Source of the DNA: Longilinea sp.
GTDB lineage: Bacteria; Chloroflexota; Anaerolineae; Anaerolineales; Anaerolineaceae
DNA: 43,485 bases
Direction: 5' to 3'
Assembly (NCBI GenBank): GCA_017996955.1
Contig: JAGOFZ010000002.1
Coordinates: 1-43,485 of the forward strand
Part shown: positions 26,813 through 30,833 of the stretch, piece by piece
How positions within the stretch are numbered: the stretch's first letter is position 1
Layout: each line of letters begins with the position of its first letter
The notes under the pieces: generated by a model
What the model saw: only the letters and a program-made list of their open reading frames with translations
Databases searched by the model: none
Told to the model about the DNA's origin: nothing
Translations under genes and position numbers: made by a program

Positions 26813-29263
26813 TTACACAACGATGTTAACCAAGCGGCCGCGGACATAGACAACCTGGCGCGGAGGCTTGCCTTCCAGATGTTTCTGGATCACCTCGCTG
26901 GACAGGGCGGCGGCTTTGGCGGCTTCTTCGGTTACATCGGCGGGCAGGGTGATGCGGTCACGCACTTTGCCATTGACCTGGACGACCAGGGTAATCTCAT
27001 CTTCAGCAGCAGCAGCCTCATCCACAGCGGGCCAGAGCTGGTTGTGGATGGAATAGGGCTTGCCCAGGCGTGCCCACAGCTCTTCAGAGATGTGCGGGCA
27101 GATGGGCGCCAACATTTTCAAGTAGAGCTCAACGGCTTCGTTCCAAGCAGGGCTGTTCCACAGACCGGCTGATTTGACGCGCAGCATTTCGTTCATCAGC
27201 TCCATCAAGGATGAGACGATCGTGTTGAACTCAAAGGCCTGATAGTCGCGTGTGACGGAGCGCAGGGTTTGATGAACCTTGCGGCGCAACTGGCGCACCA
27301 GAACGGGATCGGGCGCGGCCATGGGAGCAGGGTCAATGACAGCCGACCAGACCCGGCGCAGCCAGCGAGAGGTGCCCTCAATGCCGCCGCTGGACCAGGG
27401 ACCGCCCATTTCCCAGCGGCAGAAGAACATCAGGAAGGCGCGGATGGTGTCGGCACCATAGGCATCCACCAGATCATCGGGAGCGATCACGTTGCCGCGG
27501 CTCTTGGACATTTTTTCGCCGTCTTCTCCCAGCACCATGCCCTGATTGCGCAGGCGCAGCATGCCGGAGTGGCCCTCGGTGATGCCAACATCACGGCAGG
27601 CTTTGTGGAAGAAGCGGGTGTAAATCAGGTGCATGGTGGCATGTTCAATGCCGCCGGTGTAGGTATCTACAGGCATCCAGTAGTCATATTCTTCCGGCGG
27701 GAAGGGGTACTGGTCGCTCATGCCTTTGTTCAAATAGCCCAGGTGATACCAGGACGAGCACATGAAGGTATCCATGGTGTCGGTTTCGCGCTCGGCAGGG
27801 CCACCGCACTGTGGGCAGGTGGTAAACCGCCAGGTGGGGTGCAGCTTGAGGGGGCTTTCGCCAGTGGGCTTCCATTCCACATCATCGGGCAGCAGAACAG
27901 GCAACTGGCTTTCGGGCACAGCCACCGGGCCGCAGGCCGGGCAGTAGACGATCGGGATGGGGGCGCCCCAGTAGCGCTGACGGGAGATCAACCAGTCACG
28001 CAGCTTGTAGTTAACCGCACCGTTGCCCAATCCACGCGCTTCCAGGTAGCCTACGGCGCGCTGGAAAGCCTCAGCGCCGGGGGTACCGGTGAGTGGGCCA
28101 GAATTGACCATGTCGCCCGAGGCAGGCACGGCGGCAGTCAGATCTTCCGGGCGAATGGGTTCCAGGTCAGACGGCTGGATAACGATCCGAATGGGCAGGT
28201 TGAATTTGCGGGCAAATTCAAAGTCGCGCTGGTCGTGGGCAGGGACAGCCATGATGGCGCCCGTGCCGTAGGTCATCAAGACGTAATCGGCGATCCAGAT
28301 GGGCACCCGCTCACCATTGACCGGGTTGATGGCGTAGCCGCCGGTGAAGACGCCGGTTTTTTCTTTGTCGGCAGCCTCACGCTGCACATCGGTCTGGCGG
28401 GTGGCCTGTTCGATGTAGGCCTGCACCAGAGGGCGCTGCGCCTCTGAGGTAATCTCAGCAACCAGGGGATGTTCCGGCGCCAGGACCATGAAGGTGACAC
28501 CCCACAACGTATCGGGGCGGGTGGTGAAGACGGTCAGCGGGGAGCCGGTTTCCGTGGTAAAGGTCACGTGGGCGCCATTGGAGCGGCCAATCCAGTTGGT
28601 TTGCAGCACGCGCACCGTTTCAGGCCAATCCAGGCCTTCGTAAGAGAGCAATTCTTCGGCGTAGCGGGTGGTGCGGAAGAACCATTGGTCCAGGTTTTTC
28701 TTGATGACCGGGGTGCCGCAGCGCTCGCAGTGACGGTCATCGCCCCAGACCTGCTCGCGGGCTAGGGTGGTGTTGCACTTGGGGCACCAGTCCACCGGGG
28801 AGTGTTTGCGGTAAGCCAGCCCGTTCTTGTAGAACTGGACGAAGAACCACTGCGTCCAGCGGTAATAAGCCGGGTCGCAGGTGACGATCTCGCGCCGCCA
28901 GTCAAACATGGCGCCCATCCGGCGCATTTGCTTGCGCATGCGCTCGATGTTTGCCATAGTGCGGATGCGGGGGTGAATGTTATCGCGGATGGCGGCGTTT
29001 TCGGCAGGCAGGCCGAAGGCGTCAAACCCCATGGGAAACAGGACATTGTAGCCCTGCATGCGCATGAAGCGCGCCTGGGCATCTGAGGGGGTCATGGCGT
29101 ACCAGTGGCCGATATGGAGGTCTCCAGAGGGATAGGGAAGCATGGTCAGGGCGTAATGTTTGGGACGGGCGGGATCCACGTCAGCCTCGTAGAGGCGATC
29201 AGCGGCCCAGCGGGCCTGCCATCTGGCTTCAATTTCTGCGGGATTGTAGATTTGTTCGCTCAT
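26813..29263 (-). CDS. leuS: Leucyl-tRNA synthetase
   Basis: An 816-residue class I synthetase that charges tRNA-Leu. HIGH is at 50-53 within PYPSGDLHIGH, and KMSKS is at 584-588. The editing CP1 domain carries TTRPDTLWGVTF, and there is a zinc site with CPKCN and CERCG around residues 165-190. A second CPAC and CPQC pair follows later. GGAGGTG lies 4 nt before the ATG. Expression is preceded by a leucine T-box leader (29318-29580), so it should rise when uncharged tRNA-Leu accumulates. Confidence 0.98.
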   Translation of the reverse strand: MSEQIYNPAEIEARWQARWAADRLYEADVDPARPKHYALTMLPYPSGDLHIGHWYAMTPSDAQARFMRMQGYNVLFPMGFDAFGLPAENAAIRDNIHPRIRTMANIERMRKQMRRMGAMFDWRREIVTCDPAYYRWTQWFFVQFYKNGLAYRKHSPVDWCPKCNTTLAREQVWGDDRHCERCGTPVIKKNLDQWFFRTTRYAEELLSYEGLDWPETVRVLQTNWIGRSNGAHVTFTTETGSPLTVFTTRPDTLWGVTFMVLAPEHPLVAEITSEAQRPLVQAYIEQATRQTDVQREAADKEKTGVFTGGYAINPVNGERVPIWIADYVLMTYGTGAIMAVPAHDQRDFEFARKFNLPIRIVIQPSDLEPIRPEDLTAAVPASGDMVNSGPLTGTPGAEAFQRAVGYLEARGLGNGAVNYKLRDWLISRQRYWGAPIPIVYCPACGPVAVPESQLPVLLPDDVEWKPTGESPLKLHPTWRFTTCPQCGGPAERETDTMDTFMCSSWYHLGYLNKGMSDQYPFPPEEYDYWMPVDTYTGGIEHATMHLIYTRFFHKACRDVGITEGHSGMLRLRNQGMVLGEDGEKMSKSRGNVIAPDDLVDAYGADTIRAFLMFFCRWEMGGPWSSGGIEGTSRWLRRVWSAVIDPAPMAAPDPVLVRQLRRKVHQTLRSVTRDYQAFEFNTIVSSLMELMNEMLRVKSAGLWNSPAWNEAVELYLKMLAPICPHISEELWARLGKPYSIHNQLWPAVDEAAAAEDEITLVVQVNGKVRDRITLPADVTEEAAKAAALSSEVIQKHLEGKPPRQVVYVRGRLVNIVV

Positions 29264-29317
29264 GCAGCACCTCCGAAAAAGAAAGGAATGTTGGTTTGGG
29301 GTTCCGGGCGGAGAAAC

Positions 29318-29349
29318 AAAAAAGCCCTCGTCCAGACAGGGACGAAGGC
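29318..29349 (-). terminator. Intrinsic terminator of the leuS T-box
   Basis: On the minus strand a 10-bp stem (GCCTTCGTCC pairing with GGACGAGGGC, one G-T pair, 6-nt loop) is followed by TTTTTT. This is the terminator that the T-box antiterminator competes with. Confidence 0.92.
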
Positions 29350-29580
29350 ATGCTCCGCGGTACCACCCTGATTGCCGGTTCGCACACAGCTTGCCGGCCG
29401 CTCAGAACGCTCTAACGGGCGAACCCGTTGCCGGTTACTAGTTTTCACCGGCACAGCCTGCTTCCTGAAAAAGAAGCGCAGCAGGCGAGTTCGATCTGGC
29501 TGATGCTCCGTTGGGCATCGTGTCGGGCTTTCACCTTGCTCTCCCGACTCGCTGACGGATGATCTACTACTCCTGCTCTG
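29318..29580 (-). promoter_or_regulatory. T-box riboswitch, leucine specifier, upstream of leuS
   Basis: The leader starts with a stem-I base (AGCAGG at 29577-29572 pairing with CCTGCT at 29485-29480) and an AGTA-type element. GGTG-GAAAGC follows, then GAA-CTC with specifier CTC at 29489-29487, a leucine codon. The antiterminator box AGGGTGGTACCGCG lies at 29369-29356; its TGGT bulge can pair with an ACCA tRNA end that has discriminator A. The intrinsic terminator and leuS follow. Uncharged tRNA-Leu(GAG) binding would block termination. Confidence 0.95.
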
Positions 29581-29591
29581 GCTTTTGTTTG

Positions 29592-29664
29592 TGGACCCAG
29601 AGGGATTCGAACCCTCGGCCTTCTCAATGCCATTGAGACGCGCTCCCAACTGCGCTATGGGCCC
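29592..29664 (-). tRNA. tRNA-Ala (anticodon GGC)
   Basis: A 73-nt cloverleaf on the minus strand. The acceptor GGGCCCA pairs with TGGGTCC, the anticodon stem TCTCA/TGAGA holds loop ATGGCAT, and the T arm GAGGG-TTCGAAT-CCCTC is intact. Anticodon GGC lies at 29631-29629. The 3' CCA is not encoded. It ends 11 nt before the T-box leader. Confidence 0.96.
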
Positions 29665-29711
29665 ATATAAACTGTTCCGTGCTTGTAAAGTACAGAGGGG
29701 TCAATCCCCAG

Positions 29712-29784
29712 TGGACCTGAGGGGAGTCGAACCCCTGGCCTCCTCAGTGCGATTGAGGCGCGCTCCCAACTGCGCTACAGGCCC
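29712..29784 (-). tRNA. tRNA-Ala (anticodon CGC)
   Basis: A 73-nt cloverleaf on the minus strand, with acceptor GGGCCTG/CAGGTCC, anticodon stem CCTCA/TGAGG and loop ATCGCAC giving anticodon CGC at 29751-29749. It differs from its neighbour mainly in the acceptor and anticodon arms, so the pair probably arose by duplication. CCA is not encoded. Confidence 0.96.
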
Positions 29785-29803
29785 GTTTGATTTGAGTAAG
29801 CCG

Positions 29804-29832
29804 ATTTTACCCGAGAGACTGGGGATTGTCAA
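29804..29832 (-). promoter_or_regulatory. Consensus promoter of the tRNA-Ala/T-box/leuS unit
   Basis: TTGACA (29832-29827) and TAAAAT (29809-29804) on the minus strand with a 17-nt spacer. It sits 19 nt before the first tRNA-Ala. No comparable promoter stands between the tRNAs and the T-box. Confidence 0.88.
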
Positions 29833-29862
29833 GAACGGATTTTGGAAAAATTTGACGATGTT

Positions 29863-29894
29863 TTGACGCCTGTCTGTCAAAATATGTCTATAAT
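29863..29894 (+). promoter_or_regulatory. Promoter candidate for the gene at 29931
   Basis: A perfect TATAAT at 29889-29894 is preceded by TTGACG at 29863-29868, but the 20-nt spacer is longer than usual. The -10 is convincing, the -35 less so. Confidence 0.5.
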
Positions 29895-29930
29895 CATATT
29901 ATTCCCCTGTGATTGCCAAAGGAGTTGATT

Positions 29931-30833
29931 ATGGGCACCATCGGTCAAGAAGTTGGGCGCGGCTGCGGACGATCCATTATCGTTTATATGATTGCCGGGA
30001 TTGTGATGCTCTGCCTGTTTGGCGGGCTGGTGTTGGTTCCGCTGTTTTATGTGATGAGTAATGATACCGTTAGCATCTGGTATCTAATTGTTCCGCTGGG
30101 CCTGTTTTTCCTGATTTTGACCGGAGGCGGGGTTGGTCTGCTGCTCTGGGTGACGGCGGCGCGCAAGCGAACGGTGGACGCCGCCTTTACCCCCTGGGGG
30201 CTGGCTGGCAACAATTATCTGATGACGTTCCGGCAGTATCATGGCTCAGTGCAGGGGCGGCAGGTGGATACCTATTACTACCGGGGTCCCATTCTGGACA
30301 TTGACATTCAGACCAGTCTCAAAACCCGGATGGGCGTCACCGGGCGGCAGGGAGACACAATTTTTCTGGCAAAACTGGCCGGACGCGCTCCAATGCAGTT
30401 ACCGTCAGAGTTGAGCGATTTGACGGTCTTTCCAAGTGACGAAGCCTGGGTGCGTGACCTGGTCAATGACCCGCAGGCAGCGGAAATTTTGCGGCGGCTG
30501 ACGACGCTGAACGGCGATTTCAGCCGGCAGCAGATTCTGCTGCGCCCTGGGACGCTGCGGCTGCAGCTTTCGGGCAGTCACAAGATGATGATTTTCAGCG
30601 CGAACTTTACCCCTGAGCAGGTGAACACCTGGATGCAGGACCTGTTTGCACTGGTGCGCATCATGGAGAGTCTGCCAGCCCCGGCGGTTGAGGAGCCGGT
30701 CAGCGGAGCGGATAACGTTTCCCGCCAAATCCGCAAGGTGAACTGGACGCTGGTGGCTGTGCTGATTGCCGGCGGCGTGATGTTGTGTGCCATTGGGGCC
30801 GGGGTGCTGGCTTATATTCTGGCCAGTCTTTAG
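29931..30833 (+). CDS. Membrane protein of unknown function
   Basis: A 300-residue protein I do not recognise. Two helices lie near the N-terminus (about 18-42 and 48-72), a soluble domain of about 180 residues follows, and the last helix is at about 275-298. The soluble part has an RQVDTYYYRGPILDIDI strand and a later SGSHKMMIFSANF, compatible with a beta-rich domain. Both ends face the cytoplasm or the outside together. AGGAG lies 6-7 nt before the ATG. It precedes a lipoprotein gene in the same direction. Confidence 0.75.
   Translation: MGTIGQEVGRGCGRSIIVYMIAGIVMLCLFGGLVLVPLFYVMSNDTVSIWYLIVPLGLFFLILTGGGVGLLLWVTAARKRTVDAAFTPWGLAGNNYLMTFRQYHGSVQGRQVDTYYYRGPILDIDIQTSLKTRMGVTGRQGDTIFLAKLAGRAPMQLPSELSDLTVFPSDEAWVRDLVNDPQAAEILRRLTTLNGDFSRQQILLRPGTLRLQLSGSHKMMIFSANFTPEQVNTWMQDLFALVRIMESLPAPAVEEPVSGADNVSRQIRKVNWTLVAVLIAGGVMLCAIGAGVLAYILASL

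Follow-up and report, generated by a model that had tools for sequence, protein, structure and literature searches.

A probable single transcriptional unit of two tRNA-Ala genes, a leucine T-box and leuS in Anaerolineales, and related leuS T-boxes with a tRNA-Ala gene in Stem III

Introduction

T-box riboswitches and operons that combine tRNA genes with mRNAs are both known already. In the enterobacterial thrU-tyrU-glyT-thrT-tufB operon, tRNA genes and a translation gene are co-transcribed and then separated by tRNA processing. The leader of the Bacillus thrS T-box is cut by general nucleases between its sensing part and its terminator, which stabilises the mRNA. To our knowledge, T-boxes read tRNAs that are encoded elsewhere in the genome.

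Here we analyzed a stretch of 43,485 nucleotides (the window) of Longilinea sp. contig JAGOFZ010000002.1, taken from a 78% complete MAG with an assembly of 2.0 Mb in 275 contigs. The nearest named relatives of its LeuS are from Chloroflexota, mostly Anaerolineales. The leuS leader in the window resembles the leucine T-box of the leuS attenuation type (RF00230) in having Stem I with a specifier, Stem II, Stem IIA/B, Stem III with purines, a UGGN bulge, a competing terminator and an aminoacyl-tRNA synthetase gene downstream. Unlike an ordinary leucine T-box, it is preceded by two tRNA-Ala genes in the same apparent transcript, while the corresponding leader of other lineages carries a tRNA-Ala gene within Stem III. 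The layout of tRNA genes followed by a translation gene is shared with the thrU-tyrU-glyT-thrT-tufB operon, which has no riboswitch between its tRNAs and its protein gene. The predicted cut in the nested leaders falls between sensing part and terminator as in Bacillus thrS, where the cut is not at an embedded tRNA.

Keyword look-ups in PMC7583486, PMC7778990 and PMC2494555 gave no mention of a tRNA gene before or inside a T-box leader. Nor did we find a description of such a gene in open papers, a set that does not cover two major T-box surveys. The fusion of a T-box with a tRNA gene, and especially the placing of the tRNA gene within Stem III, appears to be new, and the arrangement is likely novel.

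Anatomy of the leuS locus

All features of the locus are on the minus strand, in the order promoter, tRNA-Ala(CGC), tRNA-Ala(GGC), leucine T-box, intrinsic terminator and leuS. The sequence scan found a sigma-70 type promoter (29804..29832) 19 nt 5' of the first tRNA, with TTGACA at 29832-29827, a 17-nt spacer and TAAAAT at 29809-29804. It matches 11 of 12 consensus positions, in agreement with the earlier note, which had placed a consensus promoter before the two tRNA-Ala genes. Both ARAGORN and Rfam identified tRNA-Ala(CGC) at 29712..29784 and tRNA-Ala(GGC) at 29592..29664; each has G3-U70 and A73, and neither has an encoded CCA. The full RF00230 model matched the leader at 29588-29335. Its Stem I (29481..29576), delimited by sequence reading, Rfam alignment and folding, has the basal helix GCAGG/CCTGC, and the specifier codon CUC (Leu) lies within GAACTC at 29487..29489. 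Stem III (29372..29403) was read from the sequence as GCCGG...CCGGC. The Rfam alignment placed the antiterminator at 29341..29369, with a T-box bulge UGGU (29365-29362) that fits a tRNA ending in ACCA. The intrinsic terminator (29317..29349, terminator scan) has a 10-bp stem followed by T6. Downstream, leuS (26813..29263) encodes an 816-aa leucyl-tRNA synthetase in which both the editing and the catalytic domain of LeuRS were recognized; the gene is preceded by the ribosome site GGAGGTG (29274-29268).

The earlier note's figure of 11-12 nt between the second tRNA and the T-box leader needs a small correction: the Rfam match begins 3-4 nt past the discriminator base and the basal helix of Stem I about 15 nt past it. 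The AGTA motif of Stem I is 17 nt from the end of tRNA-Ala(GGC).

Leucine T-box features of the leader

The window T-box scored 61.8 bits (E 6e-13), below the curated cut-off of 93 bits. Five further T-boxes in the same genome scored 61-92 bits against Rfam, also all below the cut-off, indicating that this lineage simply scores low; the T-boxes of relatives with a nested tRNA scored 94-133 bits. Other features point to a genuine T-box. The specifier CUC agrees with the regulated gene, leuS, and the antiterminator with its UGGN bulge overlaps a competing intrinsic terminator. PMC7583486 describes RRRxG and AA purine strings flanking Stem III for the T-box discriminator, and the window reads GAGCG-GCCGG...CCGGC-AA at this place. 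The same traits recur at other loci. A CTC specifier was found in 52/56 loci with tRNA-Ala upstream of the T-box and in 68/73 loci with a nested tRNA, and a terminator hairpin in 39/56 and 38/73, respectively, compared with one in the shuffles of each set. The five further T-boxes of the genome had no tRNA at their loci. A strict, unvalidated pattern for a tRNA-Leu(GAG) gene had no match in this 78% complete MAG, a negative that therefore carries no weight.

Conservation, gene copy number and promoter positions

We surveyed 60 relatives, 36 from the same family and 24 from the same order. Order of the genes in related genomes had been proposed as a check by the earlier note, and tRNA-Ala, T-box and leuS followed one another on one strand within ~1.4 kb in 43 of the 60. 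The usual tRNA order in these 43 relatives was CGC first and GGC second, and one named locus (L095) had the reverse order. The remaining relatives had contig edges, no clear leuS, or separated parts. The end of the tRNA and the AGTA motif of Stem I were 6 to 144 nt apart, depending on the locus. In six Anaerolineales loci (L018, L036, L042, L043, L046, L098), the gap between T-box and leuS was 600-850 nt, leaving room for an extra gene under the T-box.

Copy numbers were estimated by pattern searches of genomes. In the window's genome, the tRNA-Ala(CGC) at leuS is the sole clear CGC match and the tRNA-Ala(GGC) at leuS the sole GGC match. Each of the Anaerolineales genomes checked had one genuine-looking match for GGC and one for CGC, nearly always at leuS; a few extra pattern matches elsewhere did not resemble tRNA-Ala. 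The pair was far from leuS in genome G017, and in G007 neither a T-box nor leuS was found within 1.5 kb of the pair.

Promoter positions were compared at 55 loci of the upstream type, where tRNA-Ala precedes the T-box (44 from sampled genomes and 11 named). All of them had a promoter matching at least 10 of 12 consensus positions 10-40 nt 5' of their first tRNA, nearly always at the distance seen in the window. Only three of the 55 had a match of 9/12 or better anywhere from the start of the last tRNA up to Stem I. These positions support the earlier note's proposal that the two tRNAs, the T-box and leuS form one transcript, in which the T-box leader has no room for its own promoter except inside the tRNA. 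No terminator was found between the tRNAs and the T-box, the sole terminator-like site in 29200-30000 being the one after the T-box. A single transcript for the tRNAs, T-box and leuS is therefore well supported, as judged from sequence, though a weak or non-sigma-70 promoter may lie inside tRNA-Ala or in the short gap.

Such a promoter would be needed if the tRNAs and leuS were neighbours by inherited gene order only, with leuS served by an undetected promoter of its own and the tRNAs ended by an unseen terminator. The tRNAs and leuS are indeed apart in a few Anaerolineales relatives (G010, G015, G017, G050, G051, G058), so the linkage is not obligatory; separation is viable, and leuS must use another promoter where the parts are apart. 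However, the window's flanking genes were not found at the 12 named and 59 relative loci. Because the unit is kept while its flanking genes are not, the linkage looks selected, and general synteny was ruled out as the cause of the conserved order. Together with the 52 of 55 loci whose gap has no promoter, the single terminator-like site, and the lineages described below in which the tRNA is physically within the leader, this makes mere inherited adjacency very unlikely.

tRNA-Ala(GGC) genes inside leuS T-boxes

Judged by the sequences of more distant leuS loci, the linkage extends far beyond this order, up to tRNA-Ala genes within the T-box. We searched for leuS across GTDB species and examined the loci for tRNAs with ARAGORN. 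In loci of other Chloroflexota and of Bacillota, ARAGORN identified a tRNA-Ala(GGC) that follows the specifier and precedes the antiterminator, at the position of the Stem III loop. A full-model T-box spanning an intact tRNA and scoring at or above the Rfam cut-off was found at L088, L060, L065, L097, L099, L082, L114, L122, L123, L156, L161, L170 and L172. A general pattern, designed to catch the T-loop of whatever tRNA lies shortly 5' of an antiterminator, matched in 35/400 Chloroflexota genomes (~31 with an alanine tRNA; one match for the reversed control pattern) and in 45/199 Bacillota genomes (44 with an alanine tRNA; four for the control). Six pattern matches suggesting nested non-alanine tRNAs were rejected: they did not resemble tRNAs, and in the four fetched ARAGORN found none before the antiterminator. 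The tRNA of the fetched nested loci was always Ala(GGC), ended 9-30 nt before the antiterminator, and was followed by leuS in nearly all cases, with L161, L162 and L172 as exceptions. Thermosyntropha lipolytica DSM 11003 and Tengunoibacter tsumagoiensis are among the species of the nested type. In the Ktedonobacteria-like group, a tRNA-Ala(CGC) also lies just 5' of the nested leader, so both arrangements share the same two tRNAs.

Sixty-two of 68 nested loci had a promoter 5' of Stem I, in Bacillota often a perfect TTGACA-17-TATAAT. A possible internal promoter was seen in 14 of the 68, all from the Ktedonobacteria-like group.

Some of these loci had additional features. At L172, the sole clear case of its kind, a leucine T-box with a nested tRNA-Ala(GGC) precedes an acyl-CoA ligase-like gene in place of leuS. 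At L161, a group II intron (Rfam matches) starts directly 3' of the terminator that ends the nested T-box, and at L162 intron-like sequence, recognized by eye, does so; some group II introns habitually insert after terminators, with which both cases are consistent. L118, a leuS locus of the same order as the window, had a nested-pattern match and an antiterminator motif 5' of leuS, with no tRNA or specifier detected in the leader.

The position of the nested element, precisely within Stem III of a structured RNA, is what might be expected if it were a tRNA-like part of the T-box and not a tRNA gene. This reading is extremely improbable, since the nested elements have a full cloverleaf, a GGC anticodon, G3-U70 and often an encoded CCA, score 57-69 bits against the Rfam tRNA model, and are usually the sole GGC alanine tRNA match of their genome by pattern search. 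The Rfam tRNA scores, the alanine identity and the usual single copy likewise excluded false ARAGORN calls inside T-boxes.

The sequences flanking the nested tRNA pair with each other. Their mean pairing energy was -10.7 kcal/mol, compared with -7.5 kcal/mol when flanks were swapped between loci, and 0 of 5000 permutations were as good. At the first positions of the Stem III helix, G-C, A-T, T-A and C-G pairs replace one another between nested loci, a tally that is weaker than the swap test because its 5' anchor was picked for best pairing. The Stem III helix is thus kept around the nested tRNA. In the LeuS tree, whose branch support was mixed, nested types are spread over Bacillota and several deep-lying branches of Chloroflexota, and upstream types make up most of Anaerolineae. 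We lean towards the nested form being the older of the two.

Proposed expression of the unit

We propose that one sigma-70 promoter produces a single RNA with both tRNAs and a leuS throttled by the T-box, as part of a wider linkage that includes the nested form; we consider this explanation highly probable. RNA polymerase would start at the tRNA promoter, always make both tRNA-Ala, and then meet the T-box. With charged tRNA-Leu, the terminator would form and only the tRNAs and leader would be made. Uncharged tRNA-Leu (anticodon GAG, specifier CUC) would stabilise the antiterminator and allow leuS to be made. RNase P would cut the tRNA 5' ends, and an RNase Z type cleavage after A73 is expected at the 3' ends because CCA is not encoded. 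The 3' cut would free the tRNAs and leave a T-box leader whose new 5' end lies immediately ahead of Stem I; established tRNA biology predicts that 3' processing of the tRNA would release the leader in this manner. leuS would in this way use a strong promoter of the stable-RNA kind, held in check by the T-box. Where tRNA-Ala(GGC) is inside the leader, each leuS leader transcript would also be a tRNA-Ala precursor.

The earlier note had further supposed that tRNA-Leu sensing would be linked to the supply of tRNA-Ala. This part is not supported for the window, where both tRNAs lie 5' of the T-box terminator and would be made regardless of leuS. In the upstream and the nested form alike, the terminator comes after the tRNAs, so that tRNA-Ala should be made whatever the T-box decides, and the gene order indicates that leuS would depend on the tRNA promoter and not tRNA-Ala on the T-box.

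The adjacent or nested tRNA-Ala could also serve mainly as a processing signal, its excision by RNase P and 3' nucleases trimming the leader so that leuS mRNA starts at a stable hairpin, much as leader cleavage acts on some Bacillus T-box mRNAs. The short distance between nested tRNA and antiterminator speaks for this, as the mRNA would be left with a short, structured 5' end. However, a second GGC alanine match is usually absent and the tRNA looks functional, so that making it is probably a purpose of its own, and in the window arrangement the cleavage would fall upstream of the entire T-box. As the main role, processing is possible but doubtful; it is compatible with the single-transcript explanation. 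In our view it is unlikely that the nested tRNA-Ala takes part in the switching itself, shaping the decision between Stem III and antiterminator by the way it folds or is bound or cut by tRNA-processing enzymes, with the upstream form of the window derived from such a system. If so, one leader would read tRNA-Leu charging while being itself a tRNA-Ala precursor.

Implications

Under the single-transcript explanation, a T-box leader is joined to a tRNA gene, or in two phyla contains one, and this tRNA is usually the cell's sole match for its anticodon. Transcription of the leader would thus be needed for one tRNA, while leuS, expressed from the same promoter, would be restrained by the sensing of another. 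The nested leaders indicate that Stem III is able to hold a whole tRNA domain. The linkage would offer a natural system for testing how a single RNA accommodates a riboswitch decision, the maturation of a tRNA and the release of an mRNA. Annotating the tRNA and the T-box as separate genes would miss this linked unit.
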